A DNA stretch of 64,000 bases. It comes from Lachnospiraceae bacterium MA2020 (lineage in GTDB: Bacteria > Bacillota > Clostridia > Lachnospirales > Lachnospiraceae). The notes beneath the pieces are model-generated. The model had not been told where the DNA came from and ran no database searches. It was given only the letters and a program-made list of their open reading frames with translations. Both the position numbers and the translations under genes were made by a program. Positions 284 through 63,403 of this stretch are shown here, piece by piece. Numbering within the stretch: position 1 is the stretch's first letter; the number at the start of each line of letters is the position of its first letter. Location of the stretch: the NCBI GenBank assembly GCA_000746015.1, contig KN050797.1, forward strand, positions 116,675 through 180,674, in the 5' to 3' direction.

Positions 284-766
284 TCATTCATTGTCACATG
301 GATATTTTTTCATTGCCTCCAGAATGTCCTCTGCACTTCGACACTTCCCCAAAGCGTCGATAAGGTCATCATTCATGAAAATATCCATAAGCTGCGAAAT
401 ATTATTCATGTGCTCTTCAGAGTTGACAGCTGAAAGAGTGAAGAAAAGATTGGCTTCCTTCTTTTCTCCGTCCTCGTCCTCACCGAAGTCGATCATGTTC
501 TCTGATACCATAAAGCCTATGCCTGTTTTATAGGCGCCCTCTGGATTTTCAGTTGTATGAGGCATTGCGATATTGTGCTCGAAAACAACATAAGGACCGT
601 GCTTTTCGATACATGCAACGATCTGCTTGTAGTAATCTTCACTTACACTGCCATCCTCTACAAGAGGAAGTGCGCTCAAACGCACTGCCTCCTGCCATGT
701 CACACCTTCACCGTTGATGAAGCTGTAGTGTTTCTTCTCTACGATTGTCTCTAATACATTAGCCAT
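284..766 (-). CDS. ulaC: PTS EIIA component (UlaC/fructose-mannitol IIA fold)
   Basis: This 160-residue cytoplasmic protein has the length of a stand-alone EIIA of the mannitol/fructose fold. The expected phospho-accepting histidine is His70, in the motif EHNIAMPHT, inside the usual PH-T context. It would carry phosphate from HPr to the IIB unit of the ascorbate transporter. The ATG at 764-766 is preceded by GGGAG. The gene lies 20 bp downstream of ulaG and 38 bp upstream of the IIC gene, all on the minus strand, which fits one operon. An acidic stretch near residue 95 (GEDEDGEKKE) is probably a surface loop. Other IIA specificities cannot be excluded from this protein alone. Confidence 0.85.
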   Translation of the reverse strand: MANVLETIVEKKHYSFINGEGVTWQEAVRLSALPLVEDGSVSEDYYKQIVACIEKHGPYVVFEHNIAMPHTTENPEGAYKTGIGFMVSENMIDFGEDEDGEKKEANLFFTLSAVNSEEHMNNISQLMDIFMNDDLIDALGKCRSAEDILEAMKKYPCDNE

Positions 767-786
767 TTATTTTTCTCCCGTTTATA

Positions 787-1890
787 TTACAGACATGATC
801 TGTAAGGAATGTTCTGTGGGTGCTCGAAGCAATCCTCAAATCCACGACGGTGGTGGTAGTAGATCTTATCCTTGTCCTGTGGATACATATACTTGCCGCC
901 TACCTGCCAGAAGAATGGATGGAACTTGTACTCGTTACGATCCTTCTTGAAATCGTAAAGGAGCTTGATCTCATCACAATCTGCCTGGAAGTTTGTCCAT
1001 ACATCCCAGTGAATAGGAACTACAACGTCACAACGAAGGTTCTCAGCCATACGGAGTACATCGATAGATGTCATCTTGTCCTGCATTCCGATAGGATTCT
1101 CACCGAATGAACCGAATGCTACGTCAATATCATAATCTTTACCGTGCTTAGCAAAGTAGATTGAGAAGTGTGAATCACCTGAGTGATAGATGTTTCCGCC
1201 AGGTGTCTTTACGAGGTAGTTTACAGCCTTCTCATCCATATCTGTAGGACACTTGCCTGTAAGCTCTTCTCTGTCCTCACCAGTAGAGTCTGTAGTAACG
1301 ATACATGTACGATCAAAGCTGTCAAGACATACGATCTCGATATCCTTAAGCTTGATAACATCGCCAGGCTTTACAATCTTGCATCTCTCTTCAGGAACTC
1401 CCCACTTTATCCATGTCTCAACAGACTTCAAAGGTCCTATAAATGGTACCGGGATTTCCTTTCCGTTCTCATCTGTTGTTGTCATGCCGCTGTTAATAAC
1501 ATGTGCAGCCCACTCAGCAGACATATGATCCTGATGATAATGTGTAGCAAGGACTGCATCAACCTGCTTAAAAGCGAATGGATCAATAACGAATGGTACA
1601 TTCCTTAAGTTTGGCTGCATAAGGCGTCCGCCGCACATATTTGCCATCTGGTGTCCCGGCTTCATCTTGCCGTCACCGTGTGTGCGCTTACCATTTCCAC
1701 ACCAAAGGTCGATAGTAATGTTTGCGCCACCTGGTGTCTTGAACCAGATGCCTGTGCATCCGAGCCACCACATTGCTACCTGTCCCTCAGGTACTACTGC
1801 ATTTTCGATGTCCTCTACAAGCCATGTGCCCCACTCTGGGAAAGTACTGTTGATCCAGCTTTCGCGGGTCATTTCTGAAATCTTACTCAT
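787..1890 (-). CDS. ulaG: L-ascorbate-6-phosphate lactonase UlaG
   Basis: UlaG opens the lactone ring of L-ascorbate 6-phosphate to 3-keto-L-gulonate 6-phosphate in the cytoplasm. This is the first committed step after PTS uptake. The 367 residues match the family length (about 355). The metallo-beta-lactamase metal motif is intact as THYHQDH at residues 116-122. Further His/Asp ligands are visible in YHSGDSHFS and VPIHWDVW. The start ATG has a strong AGGAGG site about 5 bases upstream. It is the first gene of the minus-strand ula operon and is divergent from ulaE across a 564-bp control region. Dehydrogenase or decarboxylase genes (UlaD) are not in this window. Confidence 0.93.
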   Translation of the reverse strand: MSKISEMTRESWINSTFPEWGTWLVEDIENAVVPEGQVAMWWLGCTGIWFKTPGGANITIDLWCGNGKRTHGDGKMKPGHQMANMCGGRLMQPNLRNVPFVIDPFAFKQVDAVLATHYHQDHMSAEWAAHVINSGMTTTDENGKEIPVPFIGPLKSVETWIKWGVPEERCKIVKPGDVIKLKDIEIVCLDSFDRTCIVTTDSTGEDREELTGKCPTDMDEKAVNYLVKTPGGNIYHSGDSHFSIYFAKHGKDYDIDVAFGSFGENPIGMQDKMTSIDVLRMAENLRCDVVVPIHWDVWTNFQADCDEIKLLYDFKKDRNEYKFHPFFWQVGGKYMYPQDKDKIYYHHRRGFEDCFEHPQNIPYRSCL

Positions 1891-2454
1891 TTCTCCTCCT
1901 TTATGATAATGACATTTTCAAAACATGAGTAATGGTTGGATTAAATGTTTATGTTCCGTCCATATTTGCTTTATGACTATATAATAATCTTGTTTCGAAA
2001 TAAAATCAATCATAAAAATTAAGTTATATGATTGTTAAAAAGCATTATATGTTCGTTTAGTAAATGTATTGTGCAAATAGCTTATCAAGACAAGTTGAGC
2101 AAAATCAAGGGTTTTGGCACAAAAATACCGTATTTGAAGTTTTATGAACGCTTGTGGTTGTGCATAATGACGAAAATTTTAGGATAATAAAAATTGCGTA
2201 AATATAGGGAAAATACTTGAAAAACTACAGAATAATACATATAATCAAAGCGTGGAAAAGATATGACAGTTTAATCTGTCTTATATGAAATATTTCATAA
2301 TAGGACAGAAAAGAAAACTAAATATGTATGACTTGGGTTATGTTATTTATATGTTCGTGTTTTATGTTCCATATTTGCTTAAAACAAAACATAAAGCGAG
2401 TGCGATATGATTACACACTATATAATGTAGTGATCGTTTTTGGGAGAATTTTTT
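1891..2454. promoter_or_regulatory. Divergent ula control region
   Basis: This 564-bp AT-rich gap separates ulaG (leftward) from ulaE (rightward). I see no gene or tRNA in it. It holds two copies of TTTATGTTCC followed by ATATTTGCTT: one at 1948-1971, where four bases (GTCC) separate the halves, and one at 2361-2380, where the halves abut. A second shared word, TATATGTTCGT, occurs at 2046-2056 and 2348-2358. A perfect 16-bp palindrome, TATGAAATATTTCATA, lies at 2284-2299. A TATAAT at 2421-2426 sits before ulaE, but its -35 position is poor, which fits an activated or repressed promoter. DeoR-family repressors control ula genes in enteric bacteria; which regulator acts here is unknown. Confidence 0.6.
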
Positions 2455-3297
2455 ATGAAAAAATACGCAATAGGACTATATGAAAAGGCAATGCCCAAGA
2501 GTATGTCATGGGAAGAGAAGCTGCAGTGTGCTAAAGACTGTGGCTATGATTTTGTAGAGATAAGTATTGATGAAACCGATGAAAAGCTTGCAAGACTTGA
2601 GTGGAGTCAGGATGAAAGACTTGAGCTTGTAGGTCTTATGAAAAAGATCGGTGTACCTATAAGAAGTATGTGTCTTTCAGGACATAGAAAGTATCCTTTC
2701 GGAGCGTCTGATGAGGCTGTAAGAAAGAGAAGTATGGAGATTATGGAAAAGGCCATCGAGCTTGCAGATGATCTCGGCATCAGGATCATACAGCTTGCCG
2801 GATATGACGTTTACTATGAAGAGGGTACAGCGGAAAGTGAGAGACTTTTTGCAGAAAACCTTAAAAAGGCAACGATCATGGCAGCGTCAAAGGGTATCGT
2901 CATGGGCTTTGAGACTATGGAAACAGAGTTCATGAATACTACTGAGAAGGCTATGAAATATGTAAAGCTTGTGGATAATCCGTATCTTGGAGTATATCCT
3001 GACTCCGGAAATCTTACAAATGCGGCAGTAACTTACGGCACAAGCGTGCTTGACGATCTTGAGACAGGAAGAGGCCATATCGTGGCACTTCATCTTAAGG
3101 AAACTGTACCGGGTAAGTTCCGCGAGATACCATTCCTTACAGGACATGTTGATTTTGAGGCTGTAATTAAGAAGGCATGGGAGCTTGGCATCAGAAGATT
3201 TGTTACTGAGATGTGGGATGTAGGAAACGAGACCTGGAAAGAGGATATCGTTTTCGCATGTAAGTCAATGAGTGCAATACTTGATAAACAGGATTAA
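2455..3297 (+). CDS. ulaE: L-xylulose/L-ribulose-5-phosphate 3-epimerase UlaE
   Basis: This TIM-barrel epimerase interconverts L-xylulose 5-phosphate and L-ribulose 5-phosphate in ascorbate breakdown. The 280 residues match UlaE/SgaU length (about 284). Family words are clear: GLYEKAMP near the start, FVEISIDETDE, MCLSGHRKYPFG, IQLAGYDVYY and YPDSGNL. Metal-ligand Glu/Asp/His residues of the xylose-isomerase-like fold are present, including the Glu in FETME, the Asp in YPDSGN and the His in ALHLKE. The start was set at ATG 2455 because GGGAG lies 8 bases before it; a TTG at 2440 would overlap no ribosome site. It is divergent from ulaG and 22 bp ahead of the next gene, so the two rightward genes are probably co-transcribed. 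Confidence 0.93.
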   Translation: MKKYAIGLYEKAMPKSMSWEEKLQCAKDCGYDFVEISIDETDEKLARLEWSQDERLELVGLMKKIGVPIRSMCLSGHRKYPFGASDEAVRKRSMEIMEKAIELADDLGIRIIQLAGYDVYYEEGTAESERLFAENLKKATIMAASKGIVMGFETMETEFMNTTEKAMKYVKLVDNPYLGVYPDSGNLTNAAVTYGTSVLDDLETGRGHIVALHLKETVPGKFREIPFLTGHVDFEAVIKKAWELGIRRFVTEMWDVGNETWKEDIVFACKSMSAILDKQD

Positions 3298-42900: not shown

Positions 42901-42920
42901 TGTTAATGGGGAGGATATCT

Positions 42921-43877
42921 ATGAGGGGAATATTTGCACGTTATCTTTTTAAGGATATTTTTACTGAGTGGCTTGAGTACAGAAGGGGTGACTTAAAAGA
43001 ATCAAGTCTCGTAAAATACAGGAACATAGTAAAGACCTATCTTTTACCATGCTTCGCCGATAAAGACATCAGGACTTTATCATATGAGAAAGTAAAAGAA
43101 TATATAGAAGAATTAAGGCAATCCGGTGGAAAACAGCGCAAAGGATTATCTGCGGCAACTCTGCGTACGATAGTGACCGTGATAAAGTCGATATTCGCCT
43201 ATGCCGCAAATGCCAAAAGGCTAAAGGTCGCAAGTCTGTCTGACCTAAAGGCGGACAGCAAGCAAAAAGAGTATAGAGTACTTACGACTACGGAGCAGAT
43301 AAGCCTTGAGGAGAAGTGCAGGGAAAAACTTACACATAAGGATGCAGGGATAATCCTGATGCTCTTTACAGGAATCCGTATAGGGGAGCTCTGAGCCCTA
43401 AAATGGAGTGATATAGACCTAAAAAACAGCAGTATAAATATAAGTCGTACTCTGCAGAGGATACAGACAGAGGGAGAAGCAGCGAAGACAAAGATAGTCG
43501 AGACAGCTCCCAAAAGTCAGAAGTCAATAAGGCAGGTACCGATCACATCAAATGTAATGCCGGTACTGGAAAAAATAAAAGGACAACCGGGAGAATATCT
43601 ACTGTCAGGCAAGAGCAAGGCAACAGAGCCAAGAACTATGCAAAGATATATAAAAAGCCTGACGGAAAAACTCTCAATGAAAAATGTGACATGCCATACC
43701 TTGCGGCATTCATTTGCGACAAGATGCGTAGAGTATCGTGTGGATACCAAATCACTAAGTGAGGTACTGGGACACTCATCAGTGCAGATTACAATGGACA
43801 GGTATGTGCATCCATCAATGGAAATGAAGAAGAAAAGTATCGATCTGATGGTGAAGGGAATGCATCAAAAAATTTAA
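42921..43877 (+). pseudogene. Tyrosine recombinase/integrase interrupted by one in-frame UGA
   Basis: Read through codon 158 (TGA, 43392-43394), a single frame gives a complete 318-codon phage-type tyrosine recombinase. It has an N-terminal SAM-like domain (residues about 1-90), then the catalytic domain. All main catalytic residues survive: Arg153 in FTGIRIGEL, His259 and Arg262 in CHTLRHSFATR, the His in LGHSS, and Tyr295 in MDRYVH. The stop lies where relatives usually have Cys (GELCALKW), so one base change (TGC or TGT to TGA) explains it. Start ATG 42921 follows GGGGAGG by 6 bases. No att site or cargo is recognised around it. Most likely a recent pseudogene. Confidence 0.85.
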
Positions 43878-50991: not shown

Positions 50992-53409
50992 ATGGAAAGC
51001 AGAGGCTTGAGTTATATTGTTAAAAAGCCTGAGTATGGCAGGGAAAATAAGCAGACAGATATGATCCTTCTTTTTTTACTTGAGGGATGGATGACGGTAA
51101 GATACAGGGAAGAAAATTATAAGATGATGAAAGAGGATATCATCCTTATAAATCCTGGAACCAACTATGAGATCGTAGAGGGAGAGGATGCTCTTTACGG
51201 TATCGCTTCGTTTTCAATGGGCTTTACTTCTTCCATTCTTAAAAACAGAAGAATGATTTTTTATTGCAATTCTGTAATGGATACCAAGCATTCTTACAGA
51301 GATCTACGGGATATCTTTTTTGAACTTACGGCGGAGTATACTTCATGCAGTCATCAGACAAATGCTTTGAATGAAAGCCTCATGCTGAAGCTTTTAGACT
51401 GTATAGTTGAAAACTATCAGGTGAGCCAGGATGATATAAAGAGCGAGGAGTCTGAGTCTGATCTCAGAATGAGAGAGATGATGCAGTATATTATCTCAAA
51501 TCTTGATCGAGAGATAAGCTTAAATGATCTTGCAGATCAGCTCTATGTATCGGCGTCTACTCTTTCAAGGATCTTTAAGAAAAATACAGGAGTATATTTT
51601 GCTGATTATGTGATGCAGCTCAGAGTCCGCTCATCGCTGTCGCTTCTCAAGCATACAGAGCAGAGTATCACTCAGATAGCGCTTTCATCGGGTTTTGCAA
51701 GTTCGGCTTCATATAATCGTGCTTTCCGTAAGCTTTACGGTCAGACTCCTACTGATTACCGCAAAAACAATCAGTCTGAGACTAAGCGTGAAGAGGATGA
51801 GTTTATCGAGAGCGAGAAAGAGATACGTAAAGAGCTTTTGGAAAAAGGATATGAGAAAGGAAAGCAGGATAAAATATCTCTTGGAGTAGTCGATCTGGAA
51901 AAGAATTCCGGAGAAAAATACGAGAAGAGCTGGGGGAAAATAATAAATATAGGCGCAATACATGATATGACAAAGGCAAATATGCAGTATCATGTAATGT
52001 TTCTGAGTGAGCAGCTTCATTATAAATACTTTCGTGTATGGAATGTTTTCAGCAAAAAAATGCTGCTTTTTGATGGAAGAAGCATAGGACTTTATAACTA
52101 TGATCTGATGGATCAGGTTTTTGACTTTTTTGTACAGCATAAATTAAAGCTGTTTCTTGATTTTGGACGTAGACCTGAGACAGCTATAAGTTCCGGTCAA
52201 AAAGTAGTTTATTTTAGCGAAGAGTACATTGAGTTTGAATCTAAGGAAGCATGGGAGGCACTTGTTGCAGATTTCCTTTCACATATCGTAGGGAGATATG
52301 GACAGGAAGAAGTATCCGGCTGGATATTTGAGCTTTCAAGATTTGGCGGACATGAGATGCGTCACAAAAATGGCGGTCTTTATATTGATGATGACTATGA
52401 TTTTTATGATGCATTTAAGTATTTTAATGATGCAATACGTACAAGAGTGCCTAATGCGCAGTTTGGCGGTGTTGGAAGTATCCTGAATACTGATGGAAGC
52501 TTTCTTGGAGATTTTTTCAGCAAGGCAAAGAAAGATAATTTACGCTTTGATTTTCTTTCATTTTCCCTGTTTCCTTATGACAACACTATTGAAGAAGAAA
52601 AAAAGCGTATCAGAAGGATATCAGAAAGTGATGTTTATGAAGAACATCAGGTATATGAGATCGCTGAATTTGTTAAGAATTCCGGATACGAAGACTATAA
52701 AATATATATTACGGAGTGGAATAACTCTATTTCAAACAGAAACTTCTTAAATGACAGCTGCTTCAGGGCGGCATATATTGCGAAGAAGCTGTCGGGAATA
52801 GCGGGATTAGTTGATTCTATCAGCATTATGAGTGGATCTGACTGGATAAGCAGCTATATGGATACGGTCGGGATCGTGAATGGAGGTATAGGACTTCTTA
52901 CAAAAGATACCATCCGCAAGCCGGCATACTATGCGATTGATTTTATGAATCAGCTTGGAGAGTACGTGATCGCTAAAGATAAAAACTATATAGTGACACG
53001 TAAAGAAAATGGAGACTTTTATATACTGTGCTTTAATTTTTCGTGGTTCCGTAAGAATTATCTTATGCAGGATGAAGATTTGGATATCAGGCAATCTGAT
53101 GCGATGATATTTGATAATGATGAGCCTATTACCTTAAGGCTGCAGCTTAAGAATGTAGCTAAGGCCGGCAATTATTGCATAAAGAAGAGGACGCTGAACA
53201 GTCAGTATGGAAGCATACTTAACGAATGGAAGAAATTTCAGTATAATACGCGCCTTACCCGTCAGGATGTGAAATATCTTGATGCGATAAGTCTCCCAAA
53301 TCTCAGCCAGAGCGAATTTACTGTTGAAAAGGATGGAGGAACTATCGAGCTTGAGATAAAGATGGAAATGCATGAAGTAGATCTTATACACGTCTTTTTG
53401 CAAAACTAA
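50992..53409 (+). CDS. AraC-family regulator fused to a GH39-like domain
   Basis: An 805-residue fusion. Residues 1-140 form an AraC-type cupin sensor (KEDIILINPGTNYEI). An AraC HTH pair follows at about 160-260 (ISLNDLADQLYVSASTLSRI and GFASSASYNRAFRKLYGQ). From about 297 to 740 comes a GH39 beta-xylosidase-like barrel with a C-terminal beta domain. The nucleophile motif is present as YITEWNNS (Glu575). The acid/base motif, normally WNEP, reads SRFGG after WIFEL (residues 444-448), so the acid/base Glu is missing. The barrel is therefore probably a sugar sensor rather than an enzyme. It lies just upstream of the glycoside genes and may control them. Confidence 0.9.
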   Translation: MESRGLSYIVKKPEYGRENKQTDMILLFLLEGWMTVRYREENYKMMKEDIILINPGTNYEIVEGEDALYGIASFSMGFTSSILKNRRMIFYCNSVMDTKHSYRDLRDIFFELTAEYTSCSHQTNALNESLMLKLLDCIVENYQVSQDDIKSEESESDLRMREMMQYIISNLDREISLNDLADQLYVSASTLSRIFKKNTGVYFADYVMQLRVRSSLSLLKHTEQSITQIALSSGFASSASYNRAFRKLYGQTPTDYRKNNQSETKREEDEFIESEKEIRKELLEKGYEKGKQDKISLGVVDLEKNSGEKYEKSWGKIINIGAIHDMTKANMQYHVMFLSEQLHYKYFRVWNVFSKKMLLFDGRSIGLYNYDLMDQVFDFFVQHKLKLFLDFGRRPETAISSGQKVVYFSEEYIEFESKEAWEALVADFLSHIVGRYGQEEVSGWIFELSRFGGHEMRHKNGGLYIDDDYDFYDAFKYFNDAIRTRVPNAQFGGVGSILNTDGSFLGDFFSKAKKDNLRFDFLSFSLFPYDNTIEEEKKRIRRISESDVYEEHQVYEIAEFVKNSGYEDYKIYITEWNNSISNRNFLNDSCFRAAYIAKKLSGIAGLVDSISIMSGSDWISSYMDTVGIVNGGIGLLTKDTIRKPAYYAIDFMNQLGEYVIAKDKNYIVTRKENGDFYILCFNFSWFRKNYLMQDEDLDIRQSDAMIFDNDEPITLRLQLKNVAKAGNYCIKKRTLNSQYGSILNEWKKFQYNTRLTRQDVKYLDAISLPNLSQSEFTVEKDGGTIELEIKMEMHEVDLIHVFLQN

Positions 53410-53423
53410 AAACGTTATTTTTG

Positions 53424-53466
53424 AAAAGATGCAACGAATACGATATATTTGTTGCATCTTTTTGCT
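53424..53466 (+). terminator. Terminator after the AraC-GH39 gene
   Basis: AAAAGATGCAAC (53424-53435) pairs with GTTGCATCTTTT (53451-53462), with T-rich sequence after. Confidence 0.9.
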
Positions 53467-53614
53467 GTTTTTTTATTTGTGTGCAATTTATATATAAAAA
53501 ACTCGAAAAAATGAAAAGATGAATGTTCATCAATTGAGTAAAATTACATCATCAGAACGAAACAACAAAAGCAATTGCTTAAATAAAGCAATTCAAAAAA
53601 GGAGTTTATATATT
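53466..53614 (+). promoter_or_regulatory. Control region before the C-glycoside deglycosidase-like genes
   Basis: An AT-rich 149-bp leader. It has a perfect palindrome AAGCAATTGCTT (53569-53580) with a further AAGCAATT copy at 53586-53593, and TGAATGTTCA at 53520-53529. AAAAGGAG (53597-53604) is the ribosome site. No consensus -35 is visible, which fits an activator-dependent promoter. The AraC-GH39 protein is a candidate regulator; this is inference. Confidence 0.45.
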
Positions 53615-54487
53615 ATGTATAAGTATGACAGAAAAGGACCTAAGAGAGGTGTAGCTCTCTACAGCTATTCTGCTGAGTTTGGTCTTAACAAGACCCTTGA
53701 AGACTGCTTTGAAGATCTCTATGATATGGGAGCTCACGGTATCGAGATACTTGCAAATACTCATATCGAGAATTATCCATATCCATCAGATGAATGGGTA
53801 GAGAATTGGCACAGACTTTGCGACAAGTATGAGATCGTACCTGTAGAGTATGGCAACTGGATTGACTCACATGTACTTGGCGACAGAGATCTTACAACAG
53901 AAGAGTCAGTTGAAATGCTTAAAAGAGACATCAGACTTGCTCACCGCCTTGGCTTTACAGTAATGAGAACAAAGATGCCTGTTATCAATGATTTACTTGA
54001 GCCTGTTACAAACTGGAGAGAGATAATCAAGGGAGCACTTCCACTTGCTGAGCAGCTTGGAATCCAGATGTGCCCTGAAATCCACACTCCTTCAAATCTT
54101 AAGGGTAAGCTTGTTACTGATTTCGTAGATTTCATTAAAGAGACTGGCACAAAGAATTTTGGCTTAAATATTGATTTCTCTGTATTCCGTACAGAGTTTA
54201 AGGAAGGCGAATGGGTTGATCCAAACTATACACCAAATAAGCCAGAGGATATCATTCCACTTCTTCCTTATATTTACTGCTGCCACGCTAAGTTCATCAA
54301 CATGAGTGATGACTTCCAGGAGACAACAATTCCATATCCTGAGATCATCAAGGTTATGAAGGACAACGGCTATGAAGGATATCTTCTTAGCGAGTATGAA
54401 GGTGCAGACAAATATGACGATGGCTATGAAGTAGGACAGACACTTCGTAAGCACCACATTTTACTTAAGAATCTTCTTGGAGATTGA
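53615..54487 (+). CDS. TIM-barrel protein, C-glycoside deglycosidase alpha-subunit-like
   Basis: A 290-residue xylose-isomerase-like TIM barrel. Four metal-ligand candidates sit where this fold places them: Glu155 (CPEIHT), Asp187 (LNIDFS), His224 (CCHAKF) and Glu260 (LSEYEGAD). Proteins of this type pair with DUF6379 subunits in C-glycoside deglycosidases, which cleave the C-C bond of 3-keto-C-glycosides by a metal-assisted elimination. The DUF6379 gene starts 15 bp downstream, which is the main reason for this call rather than a plain sugar-phosphate epimerase. ATG 53615 was chosen (AAAAGGAG ten bases upstream); 32 in-frame codons further upstream lack a ribosome site. Confidence 0.8.
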
Positions 54488-54502
54488 TGGAGGCAGAAAG
54501 AA

Positions 54503-54946
54503 ATGGAAAAACAGGTAATTCAGTCAGTAGGATTTAGAAATATTAAAGATAACGATGGAAACGTTTGCGGTTTCCAGTTTAAGGTAAAGCTTCCTTACTA
54601 TAGAGGAATCTTCCTTTCACAGCTCAGACCTGGAACACTTTACATTGATGGAGAAAAGATTGAAAAAGAAGACATCACATGGTGCTTCAAGGGCGAAGAG
54701 TTCTCAAATGAGCAGATGGCTCAGGATTTCAAGACACACTGGGGAACAACTACACCTGCAACACTTAAGGTTAAGAAAAAGGGCGGTCTTGCACAGGGCT
54801 ATCATGATATCAAGTACGGCTTCTGCTTTACTTCATCATATATGCCTCCAATTATCCAGAACGGACTTGATCCGGATAAAGAATCAATGGTTTACATGCC
54901 GGAGTTTGGCCATCATGTAAACGAGAGAAGACTTATCATCGTCTGA
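54503..54946 (+). CDS. DUF6379 protein, C-glycoside deglycosidase beta-subunit-like
   Basis: A 147-residue beta-rich protein with the DUF6379/CGD-beta pattern: GFQFKVKLPYYRGIFLS, a YIDGEKIEKEDITW strand pair, a W-x5-P-A-T-L-x-V stretch, KKGGLAQGYHDIKY, and SSYMPP near the end. In characterised systems of gut Lachnospiraceae this subunit completes the active site of the TIM-barrel alpha subunit, and neither works alone. It lies 15 bp after the alpha-like gene with GGAGG upstream, and a strong terminator follows, so the two form a tight pair. Whether the substrate is a C-glycoside or an O-glycoside cannot be read from sequence. Confidence 0.82.
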   Translation: MEKQVIQSVGFRNIKDNDGNVCGFQFKVKLPYYRGIFLSQLRPGTLYIDGEKIEKEDITWCFKGEEFSNEQMAQDFKTHWGTTTPATLKVKKKGGLAQGYHDIKYGFCFTSSYMPPIIQNGLDPDKESMVYMPEFGHHVNERRLIIV

Positions 54947-54982
54947 AAAAACATTACCGCTAAATACTTGCCATAACGAAGG

Positions 54983-55023
54983 CTGTCGGGATTTCAAATA
55001 AAAGAGATCCCGGCAGTTTTTTT
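54983..55023 (+). terminator. Terminator after the alpha/beta pair
   Basis: CTGTCGGGATTTC (54983-54995) pairs with GAGATCCCGGCAG (55004-55016), with G-U wobbles, followed by a run of T. Confidence 0.9.
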
Positions 55024-57108: not shown

Positions 57109-57149
57109 GGATGCAACAGATGTATATCGTCTGTTGCATCCTTTTTTTG
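57109..57149 (+). terminator. Terminator after ktrA
   Basis: GGATGCAACAGA (57109-57120) pairs perfectly with TCTGTTGCATCC (57130-57141), followed by seven T. Its inner arms GATGCAAC/GTTGCATC are the same as in the terminator after the AraC-GH39 gene. Confidence 0.95.
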
Positions 57150-57304
57150 TTTAAATGCCAATAGCGCAAAATATGAGAATCATTGTGAAACAACAGAAAA
57201 TACTAAAATGGACGATTAAGGTATCATTAGATACATGAAAGAGCTACATACCTAATTATAAAAAAGGGAAAAAATAGTAATTTGTTATAGAAGGAGAATG
57301 AAAA

Positions 57305-58144
57305 ATGAGTAAGACACTTCCAGTAGGAATTCAGGTCTATGGACTCAGAGATCTGCTCGAGAACACACCTGAGAATTTCAAGAATGTAATGCAGAAAGTT
57401 AAAGAAATCGGTTATGACGGCGTTGAGCTTGCAGGTCTTTATGGCCATAAGCCTGAGTATATCAAAGAAGTACTTGATGAGGTAGGACTCATCCCAATAA
57501 GTGCTCACGTTGCTTTTGCTGAGATGATGGAAGACATCGACACTATCATCGCTGATTACAAAAAGATCGGTGTTAAGTACCTCGTAATGCCATATATGTC
57601 AGAAGAGTACAGACCGGCTAATCCGGAAGGCTTCAAGAAGTTCCTTCCGCTCCTCAATGAGATAGGAGAGAAGATTCATAATGCAGGCATGACATTCCTT
57701 TATCACAATCATGATTTTGAGTTTGTTAAGATGGAGAATGGCAAGTGGGGATATGATGAGATGTTTGAAGCTATCCCACACGACAATCTTATGTCAGAGC
57801 TTGATACATGCTGGTGCCAGGTTGCAACAGATGATGCAGAAGGCTTCGTAAAGAAGTATAAGGACAGAATCCCTGTAGTTCACCTTAAGGACTATATCAA
57901 AAAGGGTGAAGTTAAAAATATGTACAAGCTCATCGGAATTGATACTGAGGAAGAAGAGGGAGATACGGGATACTTCGGTTTCAGACCTGTTGGTTTTGGA
58001 ATGATGATCTGGGAGCCTGTATTGGATGCAGCTATAGAAGCTAATGCTAACTTTGTTATCGTAGAGCAGGATGAACACTATGATCTTGAGCCACTTGAGT
58101 GCGCAAGAAGAAGCAGAGAGTATCTTAGAATACTTGGATGGTGA
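57305..58144 (+). CDS. Sugar phosphate isomerase/epimerase-like TIM barrel
   Basis: A 279-residue protein of the xylose-isomerase-like family. Metal-ligand candidates are in YHNHDFEF, SELDTCWC, VHLKDY and VEQDEHYD. Close relatives next to Gfo/Idh/MocA dehydrogenases cleave or rearrange 3-keto-glycosides. The protein differs from the alpha-like barrel at 53.6 kb and has no DUF6379 neighbour, so a separate role (keto-sugar isomerisation or O-glycoside elimination) is likely. AAGGAG lies 8 bases before the ATG. The dehydrogenase gene follows 52 bp later, so they are one operon. The exact reaction is unknown. Confidence 0.85.
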   Translation: MSKTLPVGIQVYGLRDLLENTPENFKNVMQKVKEIGYDGVELAGLYGHKPEYIKEVLDEVGLIPISAHVAFAEMMEDIDTIIADYKKIGVKYLVMPYMSEEYRPANPEGFKKFLPLLNEIGEKIHNAGMTFLYHNHDFEFVKMENGKWGYDEMFEAIPHDNLMSELDTCWCQVATDDAEGFVKKYKDRIPVVHLKDYIKKGEVKNMYKLIGIDTEEEEGDTGYFGFRPVGFGMMIWEPVLDAAIEANANFVIVEQDEHYDLEPLECARRSREYLRILGW

Positions 58145-58196: not shown

Positions 58197-59477
58197 ATGA
58201 AGGAAATTAGAATTGCAATTATCGGAACAGGTATGATCTCACACAGACACATGACTGTAATTGAGAATCTTAAAAAGCGCGGGCAGAACCTCAGAGTTGT
58301 TGCTGCAGCAGAAATTGACAAAGAAAAGCTTTTGGCTTTCGGAAAGCAGTATGGTATTGATGAAAAGGATCTCTACCAGGATTTCCGCGAGATGTTTAAG
58401 AGAGATGATATTGATGAAGTAGAAGTTTGCGTACACAACAATCTTCATACATCTGTTGCAACAGCAGTAATGGCAGCAGGATTCCCATGCTACTCAGAGA
58501 AGCCAATGGCAGCAAGCTATGCTGATGCAAAGATCCTCTACGATGCACAGAAGAAGTATGGTCAGAAGCTCGCTATCCAGATCAGCTCAATCTACAATCC
58601 TCAGACAAGAATTGCCAAGGAAATGATCGCTGATGGTAAGCTCGGTAAGATTTATCACTGCCGTTCAGTCGGACACAGACGTCAGGGCCGTCCAGGCTAT
58701 GATATGCCCTTCTTCAGCCGTGACTTTGTCGATCCTAAAGTCGGTGTACATGGACCTCTTTTCGACCTTGGTATTTACCACCTCGCACAGATGCTCTATG
58801 TAATGGGTATGCCTGAGCTTGAGAGCGTATACGGAACAACAACATGTGATTACTGGAGAGATAAGAGAATTGATGATGCTGTAAACTGCCACACACCAGT
58901 TGAAGATCTTTCAGTAGCTATTGCTCGTTTCAAGAATGGTCTTTCGATGGATATCTATGAGGACTGGGCAATTCACATGGATGAGATCGGAACAAGCTTC
59001 ATTGCTGGTTCTCTCGGCGGACTTAAGTTTACAGATGTTGACCAGACAGGTGGTCCTATGGCTGTACCGGAAGGCGGATCTATCGTAGGCGGCGGCAACC
59101 TTCAGAAGCCAAGACTTGAGTACTTTGGTGTTGATGAAAAGGGTCGTCTCTTTGATACAAAGCTTGAGTGTGCTATCGGTGATATCACAGGCATGCAGGA
59201 GCTTGCACTTAACCCAGAGATGGAGAAGTACAACGACAACCAGCTTCAGTGGTATTCATACCTTCGTGGAGAGCTTACAGATGAGACAAGAATCGATTCT
59301 CCATACATCGCAATGCAGACAGCATTCCTTTCGGAAGGTGTTATGCTTTCACATGAACTTGGACGTAGCGTAACAGCTGAAGAGATTAAGGCTATGTCTA
59401 AGTCAGTTGCCATCAGAGATCAGGAGACACCATTTGGTACAATCCACTATGATTTCGATGAGTACAAGCCAGAATAA
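58197..59477 (+). CDS. Gfo/Idh/MocA-family dehydrogenase
   Basis: A 426-residue NAD(P)-dependent sugar dehydrogenase. The N-terminal Rossmann domain has IGTGMISHRHM and the family's EKPMA motif (YSEKPMAASY). The C-terminal domain has the catalytic DLGIYHLAQ (Asp/His). It is longer than common family members (about 340-390) by inserts around residues 160 and 290. In C-glycoside and 3-keto-glycoside pathways such enzymes oxidise C3 of the sugar before cleavage. It is downstream of the second TIM barrel and ends at a perfect 15-bp terminator, so it is the last gene of that unit. Confidence 0.88.
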   Translation: MKEIRIAIIGTGMISHRHMTVIENLKKRGQNLRVVAAAEIDKEKLLAFGKQYGIDEKDLYQDFREMFKRDDIDEVEVCVHNNLHTSVATAVMAAGFPCYSEKPMAASYADAKILYDAQKKYGQKLAIQISSIYNPQTRIAKEMIADGKLGKIYHCRSVGHRRQGRPGYDMPFFSRDFVDPKVGVHGPLFDLGIYHLAQMLYVMGMPELESVYGTTTCDYWRDKRIDDAVNCHTPVEDLSVAIARFKNGLSMDIYEDWAIHMDEIGTSFIAGSLGGLKFTDVDQTGGPMAVPEGGSIVGGGNLQKPRLEYFGVDEKGRLFDTKLECAIGDITGMQELALNPEMEKYNDNQLQWYSYLRGELTDETRIDSPYIAMQTAFLSEGVMLSHELGRSVTAEEIKAMSKSVAIRDQETPFGTIHYDFDEYKPE

Positions 59478-59533: not shown

Positions 59534-59724
59534 CGTGGACAAGAACACTTGCAACAGATAGTACTTATTTATTGCACGACGAATTTTCATTGTTTCTTTT
59601 AATGCAATATATGTAAACAAAATGAAGATATAGTGGAAAGAGGGTTTTGCATAAAAAAGGTATTATTTAGTTACAACAAACGACAAAACTTCATTAAATG
59701 ATAGTAATTAGGAGGAAGTAAATT

Positions 59725-60849
59725 ATGAAGAAGAAACTTTTATCAGCATTAATGGCTGGAGTGATGGTATTTTCACTTACAGCATGTGGATCAGGCAGCA
59801 GTGCAGAAGCTAAGTCAGCTTCAAGTGAGGCAGCAGCAACAACAGCTTCGGAGAGTGCAGCATCAGGTGATGCATCACATATCTATGTACTTACAGCTCC
59901 GGAAGATCACGGCTGGACAGGTTCAGTAGCAACTTTCGCAAAAGAGAAGGTTGAGGAAGTAAACGGCGCAGGCAAGTATTCAGCAGAGGTTATCACTTGT
60001 GATGATGCTTCATATCAGATCAACCAGATAGAGGATATCATTGCAAAGGGTGAGAAGAACATTTCAGTTGTTATCCAGCCTATCGATGACACAGTACAGT
60101 CAGCAATTCAGGAACTTGTAGATGCAGGTGTTCCATATGTTGCATTCGACAGGATCATTGATGGTGTTGCATCAAGTGCAGTTTCAAATGTTAAGGGTGA
60201 CAACGAAGGAATCGGTGCAGGTTCAGCAGCTTACTTTGTATCACTTGGACTTAAGCCTGGTGATAAGGTTTACGTATATGAAGGCGATACTTCATCAGTT
60301 ACAACACTTAGAAATCAGGGATTTACAGAGTATCTTCTCGGAGATATTGAGTTTGACGGACAGAAGATCGCTGATGATGCAAAGTGGACACAGGATCAGA
60401 TCGACAGCTCTATCACATATTCAGGTGCTATGAACTGGAGCCGTTCTGATACAAAGGCAGCTTTTGAGACACTTATGGGCGACAGCTCAAACACAGATAT
60501 CAAGTGGTTCTATGCAGAGGATGACGAGCTTGCAATGGGTATCCTTGAGGCATTAAACGGCGGCGGTATCGATGATGCAGCTAAGGAAGCTTTCCTTGCA
60601 AATAAGCCGGTTATCACAGGCTGTGGCGGACTTGATGAGTTCTACGGTGTTTTGAGAGGTGAGTCTTACGGTGATCTTTACAGCAAGCTTGGCGGATTTA
60701 TGTCAGTTACATACAGCCCAAGCATGATCCAGACAGCTATTCAGGATATGGTTGACAGCCTTGATGGAAGCACAGTTACACAGGATCACGTTATCGAGTG
60801 CCAGAATGTAACAGCAGACAATGTTTCAGAGTTTAAGGGATTTAACTGA
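59725..60849 (+). CDS. Sugar ABC transporter substrate-binding lipoprotein
   Basis: The 374-residue protein starts with a lipoprotein signal (MKKKLLSALMAGVMVFSLTA followed by the lipobox Cys21), then a Ser/Ala-rich linker, then a periplasmic-binding-protein type I fold (sugar class, RbsB/XylF/ChvE-like): TAPEDHGWTG, QIEDIIAKGEKNISVVIQPI, YVAFDRIIDG, and the later GCGGLDEFYGVL. It captures a sugar outside the membrane for the importer that follows. AGGAGG precedes the ATG. It is 24 bp before the ATPase gene and separated from the dehydrogenase by a terminator, so the transport operon has its own promoter, which I could not place with confidence. Confidence 0.93.
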   Translation: MKKKLLSALMAGVMVFSLTACGSGSSAEAKSASSEAAATTASESAASGDASHIYVLTAPEDHGWTGSVATFAKEKVEEVNGAGKYSAEVITCDDASYQINQIEDIIAKGEKNISVVIQPIDDTVQSAIQELVDAGVPYVAFDRIIDGVASSAVSNVKGDNEGIGAGSAAYFVSLGLKPGDKVYVYEGDTSSVTTLRNQGFTEYLLGDIEFDGQKIADDAKWTQDQIDSSITYSGAMNWSRSDTKAAFETLMGDSSNTDIKWFYAEDDELAMGILEALNGGGIDDAAKEAFLANKPVITGCGGLDEFYGVLRGESYGDLYSKLGGFMSVTYSPSMIQTAIQDMVDSLDGSTVTQDHVIECQNVTADNVSEFKGFN

Positions 60850-60873
60850 TAAATTATTTAGGAGGAAGAACCT

Positions 60874-62409
60874 ATGTCGCTTTTAGAAATGAAAGGTATT
60901 TATAAATCCTTTAGCGGCGTACCGGTTTTAAGAGGCGTGGATTTGACAATAGAAAAGGGTGAGATCCACGCCCTTCTTGGTGAAAATGGAGCCGGAAAAT
61001 CTACGCTGATGAATATACTTACCGGAACGATCGCCTATGATGAAGGCAGTATTAGATTTGACGGTCAGGAACTTAAGAATATCACAATTAAAAAAAGTGA
61101 AGAACTTGGTATCGCATTTGTTCACCAGGAACTCAATTTATTTAATGACTTAAAGGTTTTTGAAAATATCTATATAAATAAAGAAATAACTACTAAATTT
61201 GGCAGACTTGATAAGCGCCAGATGATAAAAAGATCGAGAGAACTTTTTGAAAATCTCGGAGTTAGCATTGATCCGACAGCAATGGTATCAGATCTTCGCA
61301 CAGGGGAAAAGCAGCTTCTCGAAATATGTAAGGCATTATTTTTTGATGCAAAACTTCTTATATTAGATGAACCTACGACCTCACTTACAAATGAGGAAGT
61401 TGAGCATCTGTTTAAGATTGTAAATGATCTTAAACAGAGGGGAATCTCATTTATTTTCATTTCGCATAAAATGCCGGAGATATTTGCATATTGTGATGCG
61501 TATACGGTATTTAGGAATGGAGAGTACATCGGTCATGGAAAGATCGCCGATACGACACCAAATGATGTAACGCGCCTCATGGTTGGACAGGCATCAGAGG
61601 CAGGAAAGATCTATAAAAAGCGTAAAGTCGGTGAAGAAGTGCTGAGACTTGAAAATGTCTCCGGCAAAGGATTTAATAATATTTCTTTCAGTGTGAAGAA
61701 GGGTGAGATCATTGGTCTTACAGGACTTCAGGGTGCCGGAAGCAGCGAGCTTATGCAGGGAATATTTGGCTCGGAGCCAATTTACAGCGGAACTGTAAAA
61801 GTGAGTGGCGAGACTGTTAAGACAGGCTCAGTTCATAGGGCTATGAAAGCAGGTATAAGCCTTCTTCCATCAAACAGAAAAGAAAATTCGGTAATACCGG
61901 ATATGACTTTGATAGAAAATATGTATCTTGCAGAGCATACGCTTTCAGCAGGCAAGTTTCAGATACATAAGAAAAAAGAAGAAAACAATTATCTTGAATA
62001 TAAGGATAAATTAAATATAAAGGCAGAGTCGGGGAATGATCTTATCACTTCGCTCAGCGGAGGAAATCAGCAGAAGGTATTTATTGCAAGATGGCTCAAT
62101 ACCAATTCTGACATACTTCTCTTTGACAATCCGACACAGGGAATCGATGTAGGAGCAAAAGAGGAGATTTATAGGCTCATCCTCCGTCTGGCTGAAGAGG
62201 GCAAGACTATACTTGTAAATACACTCGAGATACCTGAGCTTCAGCAGGTAGCAGACTCATGCATGATTTTTTACAATGGAGAGATTATAAAAGTGCTTTC
62301 TCACGATGAGATAGAAGAACATCGCGTAATGATGTATTCGACCAATTCTGTAGGAGCACAGGAAGGAAACACCAATGGAAACAGCGATGAAGATGAAAAA
62401 GGAAAATAA
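60874..62409 (+). CDS. Sugar ABC transporter ATP-binding protein (double ATPase, RbsA/MglA/XylG type)
   Basis: A 511-residue fused double ATPase. The first half has Walker A LLGENGAGKST, signature LRTGEKQLLEICKAL (a variant) and Walker B LLILDEPTTSL. The second half has GLTGLQGAGSSELMQ (degenerate Walker A), LSGGNQQKVFIARWL and ILLFDNPTQGIDVG. The second-site changes are normal for this class. AGGAGG lies 9 bases before the ATG. Its last 35 bp overlap the permease gene. It would drive import of the sugar caught by the upstream lipoprotein. Confidence 0.95.
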   Translation: MSLLEMKGIYKSFSGVPVLRGVDLTIEKGEIHALLGENGAGKSTLMNILTGTIAYDEGSIRFDGQELKNITIKKSEELGIAFVHQELNLFNDLKVFENIYINKEITTKFGRLDKRQMIKRSRELFENLGVSIDPTAMVSDLRTGEKQLLEICKALFFDAKLLILDEPTTSLTNEEVEHLFKIVNDLKQRGISFIFISHKMPEIFAYCDAYTVFRNGEYIGHGKIADTTPNDVTRLMVGQASEAGKIYKKRKVGEEVLRLENVSGKGFNNISFSVKKGEIIGLTGLQGAGSSELMQGIFGSEPIYSGTVKVSGETVKTGSVHRAMKAGISLLPSNRKENSVIPDMTLIENMYLAEHTLSAGKFQIHKKKEENNYLEYKDKLNIKAESGNDLITSLSGGNQQKVFIARWLNTNSDILLFDNPTQGIDVGAKEEIYRLILRLAEEGKTILVNTLEIPELQQVADSCMIFYNGEIIKVLSHDEIEEHRVMMYSTNSVGAQEGNTNGNSDEDEKGK

Positions 62410-63403
62410 TATGATCGGGAAGATCTGGAAGGGATACAGCTTCATATTTGTATTTTTTATAATATTCTTAGTATATGCGCTTTCAAGCAGCACGATGACC
62501 TGGAGCGCTACGATGAACATATTGAGACATTCAGCAGTTATCGGTATCATTTCACTTGGAATGGGACTTGTGTGCCTTACGGGTGAGATCGATCTGTCAG
62601 CAGGTTCAACACTTGCGCTTGTGAGCGGCTTTTCTGTAATTGTATTTAATGCTACAAGTGGAAATATAGTGCTGACAGCACTTTTTGCAATTGTTTTTGG
62701 CGCAATTCTTGGACTTGTAAACGGAGCGTTGGTCGGCGTAGTAAAGATGCCTTCCTTCATAGTTACACTTGCAACGATGCTTATCTACCGTTCGTTTTCA
62801 CAGTACTTCTGCCAGCATATGCAAAAGGCACTTATAGGTGGTGGTAGCTCAGTTTACAGGATGTCTAATTCGTTTGATGGCTATCAGGTAATGTACAGCC
62901 TTGGTAATAACAAACTTGCAACTATTCCTATCGTTGGAATTTTGCTTATATTATTTACAGCTGTATTTGTTTATATTACAGAGGATACAAAGTTTGGTAA
63001 AAAAGTATATGCGATCGGCTCAAGTGAGAAGGGCGCATTCATGACAGGTATCAATGTACGCCTTATGAAGATGATGGTTTTTGTGATAATGGGAATCATG
63101 GTAGGTATCGCTTCATATCTTTGGATATGCATGAATGCTTCATCTGATCCGGCTACCACCGGTTCAAGCTATGAGATGTATGCAATCGCAGCTGTTGTAC
63201 TTGGCGGAGTTGCAATGAGCGGCGGCAGAGGTAAGATGCTCGGAGTACTTTTCGGTTCACTTTCATATACCGTTATAGACAAGATCATTATTGCACTTAA
63301 GATGGATTCACTTATTAACAATGCGATAAAGGGAATCATCCTGATAATTGTAATTCTTATCCAGGTAGCAGGCCCCGAGATCAAGGAGAAGATAAAAAGG
63401 TGA
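62375..63403 (+). CDS. Sugar ABC transporter permease (RbsC type)
   Basis: A 342-residue integral membrane protein with about ten hydrophobic segments and the family words GEIDLSAGSTLALVSG, GLVNGALVGVVKMPSFIVTLA, TGINVRLMKMMVF and AAVVLGGVAMSGGRGK. One permease forms a homodimer with the double ATPase. Two starts are possible: ATG 62375 (GGAAGGA seven bases upstream) and ATG 62411 (AAAAGGA nearby); the first was chosen, giving a 35-bp overlap with the ATPase. Its stop overlaps the next gene's GTG start by 4 bp. Confidence 0.93.
   Translation: METAMKMKKENNMIGKIWKGYSFIFVFFIIFLVYALSSSTMTWSATMNILRHSAVIGIISLGMGLVCLTGEIDLSAGSTLALVSGFSVIVFNATSGNIVLTALFAIVFGAILGLVNGALVGVVKMPSFIVTLATMLIYRSFSQYFCQHMQKALIGGGSSVYRMSNSFDGYQVMYSLGNNKLATIPIVGILLILFTAVFVYITEDTKFGKKVYAIGSSEKGAFMTGINVRLMKMMVFVIMGIMVGIASYLWICMNASSDPATTGSSYEMYAIAAVVLGGVAMSGGRGKMLGVLFGSLSYTVIDKIIIALKMDSLINNAIKGIILIIVILIQVAGPEIKEKIKR

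Follow-up and report, generated by a model that had tools for sequence, protein, structure and literature searches.

A dfg-type C-glycoside deglycosidase locus of a Lachnospiraceae bacterium, with no dfgE detected and a likely shared operator

The genes dfgA and dfgB, which lie within the 64,000-nucleotide stretch of Lachnospiraceae DNA analyzed here (the window), very probably encode a working C-glycoside deglycosidase of the EuCGD type, judging from their close identity to the solved enzyme of Eubacterium cellulosolvens. Around this pair we propose a dfg pathway of rumen Lachnospiraceae that operates without DfgE. In it, DfgD would serve both DfgAB and DfgC, and the set would be switched together with a sugar importer by an AraC-GH39 regulator through the element TGCAAC-N15-GTTGCA-N24..27-TGCAA. 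We give this combined reading a probability of roughly 45%. Taken separately, the regulon and the oxidase swap range from slightly under even odds to fairly probable, and we infer both the regulator-site pairing and the swap.

Carbon-carbon glycosidic bonds withstand ordinary glycosidases, and detailed studies exist for few of the bacteria able to cleave them. Since DfgAB is near-identical to a solved enzyme, it can be made and assayed directly. The predicted operator offers a sequence handle for finding all genes tied to C-glycoside use in these bacteria, and the lack of a detected DfgE allows a clear test of which oxidase feeds DfgAB. The pair itself is a further example of an already known enzyme kind, as the structure, mechanism and wide distribution of EuCGD have been published (PMC8563793); it is the oxidase swap and the regulon that merit a second look. 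Our searches of the open-licence PMC literature turned up no description of this operator and none of dfg loci lacking DfgE.

The dfgAB pair, its active site and its likely substrate

The pair and the hairpin that closes it are as follows.

53615 to 54487, + strand: dfgA, alpha subunit of a C-glycoside deglycosidase (TIM barrel of the short, lidless form); 265 of 290 residues identical to 7bvs_A (EuCGD alpha)
54503 to 54946, + strand: dfgB, beta subunit (DUF6379/CGDB); PF19906 at 125.7 bits; 117 of 147 residues identical to 7bvs_B (EuCGD beta)
54978 to 55021, + strand: terminator-like hairpin closing the dfgAB bicistron; 18-pair stem, then a T run

A preliminary description of the sequence had proposed a TIM-barrel gene followed after 15 bp by a DUF6379 gene, together forming a C-glycoside deglycosidase alpha/beta pair, and our analysis bears this out. 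The two products are 290 and 147 amino acids long, and the gap between their genes occupies 54488-54502. We placed the dfgA start at 53615 because the EuCGD alignment begins at residue 1 of this frame and an AGGAG lies just 5′ of it; the longer ORF start at 53519 is hence unneeded. In a profile search, DfgB matched the whole of PF19906 (CGDB, C-glycoside deglycosidase beta subunit; profile positions 1-112 of 112) far above the cut-off of 27.6 bits, and dfgB is the only CGDB gene in the 3.72 Mb of its own genome. Neither protein matched an NCBIfam profile at E ≤ 0.001. Searches of the PDB returned 7bvs_A for DfgA (E = 1.2e-190) and 7bvs_B, named DfgB in that entry, for DfgB (E = 2e-83), with gap-free alignments at 91% and 80% identity, respectively. 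Entries 7dre and 7exb carry the same sequences, so that three solved EuCGD complexes are available at this level of identity; 7EXB is the entry called EuCGD in PMC10628242. On these alignments, DfgA and DfgB are orthologues of DfgA and DfgB of EuCGD. Compared with six chosen relatives, the pair is under purifying selection, with pN/pS values of 0.04-0.08 for alpha and 0.13-0.21 for beta at near-saturated synonymous change.

The metal ligands and catalytic residues of the enzyme are all in place. Four ligand positions had been read from the sequence beforehand (Glu155, Asp187, His224 and Glu260), and with the start at 53615 these residues are indeed E, D, H and E. Alignment to EuCGD adds a fifth ligand, Lys226, which that list lacked, as well as the catalytic pair H157/E262. 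This agrees with the Glu, Asp, His, Lys, Glu metal site and the catalytic His with its supporting Glu described for CGD alpha subunits, the functions of which were assigned by mutagenesis (PMC8563793). An alpha-protein scan of named genome contigs (the best 80 of 86 relatives) gave 79 further loci, and in an alignment of the window alpha with those from these loci, some of them partial, all seven residues were kept in 80 of 80 sequences. By analogy, DfgAB would carry out the second step of a two-step cleavage of flavonoid C-glycosides. A Gfo/Idh/MocA oxidoreductase would oxidize the C3 hydroxyl of the C-bound glucose; the divalent metal of DfgAB, together with His157/Glu262, would then abstract the C2 proton and release the aglycone. 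The carbon-carbon bond would thus be broken in a beta-elimination-like manner, a mechanism that is published for CGDs (PMC8563793) and that we extend to DfgAB from identity. The published assembly of EuCGD is alpha4-beta4.

The substrate loops point to the kind of glycoside that would be accepted. The 25 alpha and 30 beta substitutions relative to EuCGD all lie outside the two substrate loops with the exception of E132T in alpha and D120N in beta, so that 12 of 13 residues are identical in alpha loop 121-133 and 29 of 30 in beta loop 110-139. Both L128 of alpha and P115 of beta are kept, the two residues reported to clash with the C8-glycoside orientin in EuCGD (PMC8563793). Together, the near-identical loops and the retained L128 and P115 argue for the same C6 preference, short of proving it. 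The likely substrate class is hence the 6-C-glucosyl flavones, e.g., isoorientin and isovitexin. Forage plants contain flavones of this class. The suggestion in the preliminary description that the natural substrate may be new is not supported: the loops differ at a single residue each, and the neighboring genes are known dfg genes, with regulator, DfgC and DfgD also present in a MAG titled Eubacterium sp. (locus L030, below).

A different view of the substrate is that DfgAB is an EuCGD-type eliminase whose everyday substrates are 3-keto-O-glycosides of plant phenolics, with C-glycoside cleavage as a side ability. C-glycosides may not be the main substrate because PuCGE, itself a CGD, has dual specificity and also cleaves 3-keto-O-glycosides, and C-glycosides form a minor part of plant glycosides (both PMC10628242). 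At the locus itself, dfgCD, an O-glycoside pair, carries the same upstream site as dfgAB, and in relatives this site also precedes MFS carriers (9 sites), one GH3 gene and one GH43 gene. However, the locus already holds the AtOGE-like DfgC, which would make a second eliminase with an aglycone-closing beta subunit redundant, and the C6-flavone loops of EuCGD are kept in DfgAB. We therefore regard a mainly O-glycosidic role as rather unlikely and continue with C-glycoside cleavage as the preferred function.

The gene neighborhood and the C3-oxidase question

The genes surrounding dfgAB in the window are listed here, with identities to the homologues at L030 where these were compared.

50992 to 53409, + strand: regulator of the AraC family with a fused GH39-like domain, which probably controls the dfg units; PF12833 and PF01229
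55103-57101: trkH and trkA, potassium uptake pair, between dfgB and dfgC
57305 to 58144, + strand: dfgC, TIM barrel predicted to be an eliminase of 3-keto-O-glycosides; 79% identity to its L030 counterpart; 8bvk at E = 3e-25
58197 to 59477, + strand: dfgD, oxidoreductase of the Gfo/Idh/MocA family and a candidate C3-oxidase for glucosides; 90% identity to its L030 counterpart
59725 to 60849, + strand: substrate-binding protein of a sugar importer; PF13407
60874 to 62409, + strand: double-domain ATPase of the importer; PF00005, two stretches
62375 to 63403, + strand: importer permease; PF02653
63400 to 64000, + strand: second Gfo/Idh/MocA oxidoreductase, start only, as the window ends; whole gene L089:575-1636

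The preliminary description had held this set to differ from described C-glycoside loci, which comparison with L030 does not support. This locus, whose alpha and beta are 100% and 99.3% identical to the PDB chains, runs in the order regulator, dfgA, dfgB, dfgC, dfgD, dfgE, MFS carrier; the window has counterparts of its regulator (49% identical), DfgC and DfgD, with order and strand unchanged. Our use of the names C, D and E rests on the match of the L030 order to the published dfgABCDE, together with the match of the L030 dfgE product to isoorientin-bound DgpA2 (PDB 9m37, E = 5.1e-126). Three differences set the window apart from the E. cellulosolvens cluster as seen in L030. No dfgE was detected at the window locus or in its genome; dfgB and dfgC are separated by trkHA; and the importer is of the CUT2 type, where L030 has an MFS carrier. 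We accepted no orthologue of this MFS carrier, its relatives being at only 36% (∼12 kb ahead of the window) and 25% (elsewhere). Gene content of the loci was read by tblastn with chosen representatives, since longest-ORF calls hid genes under antisense ORFs.

Comparison of the regulator with GH39 beta-xylosidases revealed that the template WNE reads SRF and that ITEWN is retained. We take the WNE stretch to hold the acid/base glutamate and ITEWN the nucleophile glutamate, so the loss of the former suggests that the GH39 part is probably a sensor and not a hydrolase. The importer at 59725-63403 we take to be of the CUT2 type, as noted above. CUT2-type importers usually carry monosaccharides, which makes this one an odd fit for a flavonoid glycoside. 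Its binding protein has 80-84% matches in seven other loci (L010, L011, L012, L013, L023, L025 and L032), one of 74% in L017 and one of 68% in L026.

The nearest solved relative of DfgC is AtOGE (8bvk), an O-glycoside beta-eliminase. Counted by eye along the printed alignment, H134, D167, H193, E254 and H136 of DfgC align with H132, D163, H189, E233 and H134 of AtOGE. Such AtOGE-like metal ligands and catalytic His fit the report that DfgCD removes O-bound glucose; in the same report, DfgCD acts on O-glucosides and not on C-glycosides (PMC11170127).

The published C3-oxidase for the first step of EuCGD on homoorientin is DfgE (PMC8563793, PMC11170127). DfgE was not found in the 3.72 Mb of the window genome, where the two hits at E ≤ 1e-8 (28% identity) are DfgD and the second oxidoreductase; a positive control in C. 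scindens gave 55%, against a published 54%. We then surveyed the genus, a set of 48 genomes of which 22 have at least 90% completeness and at most 5% contamination. CGDB genes occur in nine of the 48, and dfgAB of the window type in six (G000, G001, G004, G030, G039 and G040; loci L001 and L005-L009). At E ≤ 1e-40, dfgD was found in exactly these six, the second oxidoreductase in five of them and in none of the 42 others, and dfgE in none of the six, G039 and G040 being only 81 and 76% complete. The other three CGDB genomes (L002, L003 and L004) carry a distant CGD, with an alpha ∼34% identical to DfgA, beside an OX2-type oxidoreductase; two of these three have dfgE and none has dfgD. A second set of 20 genomes, hand-picked from the 79 named loci, contained DfgE in 14 (E ≤ 1e-40; two of these hits are weak, with G352 at 49% and partial and G360 at 38%) and DfgD in 17, which divides into DfgD only in six, DfgE only in three, both in 11 and neither in none. 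Since two of these six match G001 and G004 by identical coordinates, the two sets hold ten distinct DfgD-only genomes; all have dfgAB, and the window genome is among them.

With DfgE not found, DfgD (or the second oxidoreductase) is the candidate supplier of the 3-keto substrate. In our proposal both eliminases, DfgAB for C-glycosides and DfgC for O-glycosides, would depend on a single oxidase, DfgD. The nearest solved relatives of DfgD are DgpA1 (9m3d) and DgpA (7xr9), at E ∼1e-23 over the first 263 residues only. Its Lys102, Asp190 and Tyr194 stand at what we take to be the superfamily catalytic positions; Tyr194 is shared with the aligned glucose-fructose oxidoreductase, and DgpA has His there. 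This distant match to DgpA and the reported inactivity of DfgCD on C-glycosides (PMC11170127) count against a role for DfgD in C-glycoside oxidation.

Alternatively, the gene that replaced DfgE could be the second oxidoreductase (63400 onward) and not DfgD. It matches DgpA at E = 5.8e-30, a better score than that of DfgD; its distribution in the genus follows dfgAB in the five genomes given above, and in L005 and L023 dfgA follows it directly. On the other hand, G001 has dfgAB and dfgD with neither the second oxidoreductase nor DfgE, and in L010, L011, L012 and the window the gene ends the importer operon. It could instead be a reductase of 3-keto-glucose. We consider the second oxidoreductase a rather unlikely partner on this balance and retain DfgD as the favored oxidase.

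The remaining features of the neighborhood concern its arrangement. The dfg cluster is interrupted, as trkHA and terminator-like hairpins separate dfgB from dfgC. By tblastn, the TrkH/TrkA pair was found at this position in none of the 79 other loci. A hairpin follows the pair, which appears to have been inserted into a pre-existing dfg cluster. Across the window we counted nine terminator-like sites (4.6 expected), found no tandem repeats and obtained an uninformative promoter scan (26 sites versus 26.3 expected). Farther away, window positions 284-3297 hold a beta-lactamase-fold protein (PF13483) and a small ORF opposite a TIM-barrel gene (PF01261); the small ORF is presumably PTS IIA-like, and the gene set resembles that for L-ascorbate (ula). 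At 42906-43394, just 3′ of a groEL-like gene, there is a 162-amino acid integrase-like ORF, apparently shortened (both labels by reading of the sequence).

A palindrome shared by the dfg units

Each of the dfg units and, in weaker form, the importer operon is preceded by the same palindrome.

53428 to 53458, + strand: palindrome GATGCAAC-N15-GTTGCATC upstream of dfgA; 156 bp from its end to the ATG; TGCAA at 53482
57110 to 57140, + strand: palindrome GATGCAAC-N15-GTTGCATC upstream of dfgC; CGCAA, not TGCAA, at 57165
59550 to 59576, + strand: TGCAAC-N15-ATTGCA, a weaker copy before the importer operon; one mismatch, G000:C1:176224-176250; TGCAA at 59603

The 31-bp palindrome has two matches in the window against 0.00 expected, and in the whole 3.72 Mb genome it occurs in exactly these two places, before dfgA and before dfgC. 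It thus precedes both dfg units despite the trkHA genes lying between them. Allowing one mismatch in the 12-base core yielded nine places in the genome, one of them before the importer. As the other eight are about the number expected from composition by our own rough estimate, the importer site rests on its position and not on rarity. A reversed control of the one-mismatch core gave 0, and since the reversed core contains CpG, this control says little about an AT-rich genome.

To see how the element behaves in relatives, we scanned TGCAAC-Nn-GTTGCA with at most one mismatch and n = 6 to 25 in 80 sequences, the extended window and the 79 loci (L001-L009, which are duplicates or too short, were excluded). 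The scan at n = 15 found 48 matches, and 41 of these lie 80-330 bp ahead of the start of a dfg-type gene. Every other n gave 0-14 matches with 0-6 so placed, the six being at n = 14. Under a slightly wider rule, 42 of the 48 sites are near dfg-type genes, in 29 loci, and six are elsewhere; the core thus precedes dfg-type genes in 28 loci besides the window. The genes following the 42 near sites are dfgA (12), MFS (9), SBP (7), dfgC (6), OX2 (3), DfgE (2), GH3 (1), ABC (1) and GH43 (1), with a mean distance from site to start of 170 bp (sd 38). Behind the palindrome we observed a third TGCAA, 24-27 bp away at 27 of the 42 sites and 18-34 bp away at 28, compared with at most 4 in 500 letter shuffles and 1 in an upstream control. 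The half-sites are hence ∼21 and ∼31 bp apart, or two and three DNA turns. Such spacing would suit a protein dimer with one half-site added; the third half-site could instead belong to the promoter.

The presence of the site also follows that of the regulator. Among 50 loci in which dfgA has 4 kb or more of sequence on either side, the site is present in 15 of 16 that have a regulator homologue of at least 38% identity (a line drawn after seeing the data), in 3 of 16 with a more distant homologue and in 1 of 18 where none was found; as many loci are related, these site counts are not independent. Given the core before dfg-type genes in 28 other loci and its pairing with close regulator homologues, TGCAAC-N15-GTTGCA is the likely operator of the AraC-GH39 regulator. 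The AraC-GH39 protein would sense a ligand and act at this element before dfgAB, dfgCD and the importer operon.

A simpler explanation, that the palindrome is a mere terminator of the upstream gene inherited with the locus, seems quite improbable to us. The two strong window sites can form 19- and 17-pair stems with T runs, the regulator gene precedes 11 of the 42 sites, and the interior pair 4/12 is paired in 29 of 42 (shuffle mean 21.7, largest 31). Yet six of the seven interior position pairs are near the shuffle mean, and a T run (at least 5 T among the 8 bases that follow the element) is found at only 16 of 42 sites. A terminator also sits poorly with the unrelated genes that follow the element at 170 ± 38 bp and with a further half-site at a set distance behind it.

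Solved relatives, described systems and distribution

The short form without lid, the metal site and the loops are what DfgAB has in common with EuCGD/DfgAB of E. cellulosolvens (7bvs, 7dre and 7exb). With DgpBC of strain PUE (PuCGD, 7bvr and 7exz) it shares the alpha/beta architecture and the two-step chemistry. DgpBC, at 34% and 38% identity to DfgA and DfgB, has a lid domain in alpha and specificity for C8-glycosides (PMC8563793), whereas the lid domain is absent from DfgA, which aligns to 7bvs_A without gaps, as DfgB does to 7bvs_B. AtOGE of Agrobacterium tumefaciens (8bvk) resembles the neighbor DfgC, with metal ligands and catalytic His aligned; it acts on 3-keto-O-glycosides without a beta subunit and is by sequence a relative of DfgC, not of DfgAB. 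Among solved alpha-type matches at E ≤ 0.01, all eight come from entries that also hold a beta-type chain or domain matching DfgB, and several of these bear epimerase-like titles from their depositors. That DfgA is an ordinary sugar-phosphate isomerase/epimerase with a chance small neighbor, as the Pfam assignment of the barrel to AP_endonuc_2 might suggest, can be practically dismissed given the 91% identity to EuCGD alpha and the CGDB match of the adjoining gene; the nearest solved relatives of the barrel are CGD alphas.

By their titles, the 79 loci (from the best 80 of 86 relatives) come mostly from gut and rumen Clostridia, and among these best 80 the nearest relative of DfgA is that of Oribacterium sp. 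KHPX15 (97%). A close DfgA (E ≤ 1e-60) was present in 5 of 296 genomes drawn from the family, in 4 of 243 genera, which indicates a patchy gene.

Several loci carry further glycosidase genes. GH3 genes accompany dfgAB in L014, L017, L020, L024, L026, L032, L044 and L088, seven of which also have GH43, and some of these GH3-bearing loci also have an esterase-like family (c16) and a large protein (c20) whose match to GH106 is weak and falls below the cut-off. A few have the same upstream site, mostly via the MFS gene. The GH3/GH43 loci may process decorated C-glycosides or parts of hemicellulose jointly. Lastly, a second, more distant dfgAB-like pair lies near the first at L017 (14241) and L026 (4329), with alphas at 58% and 57% identity.
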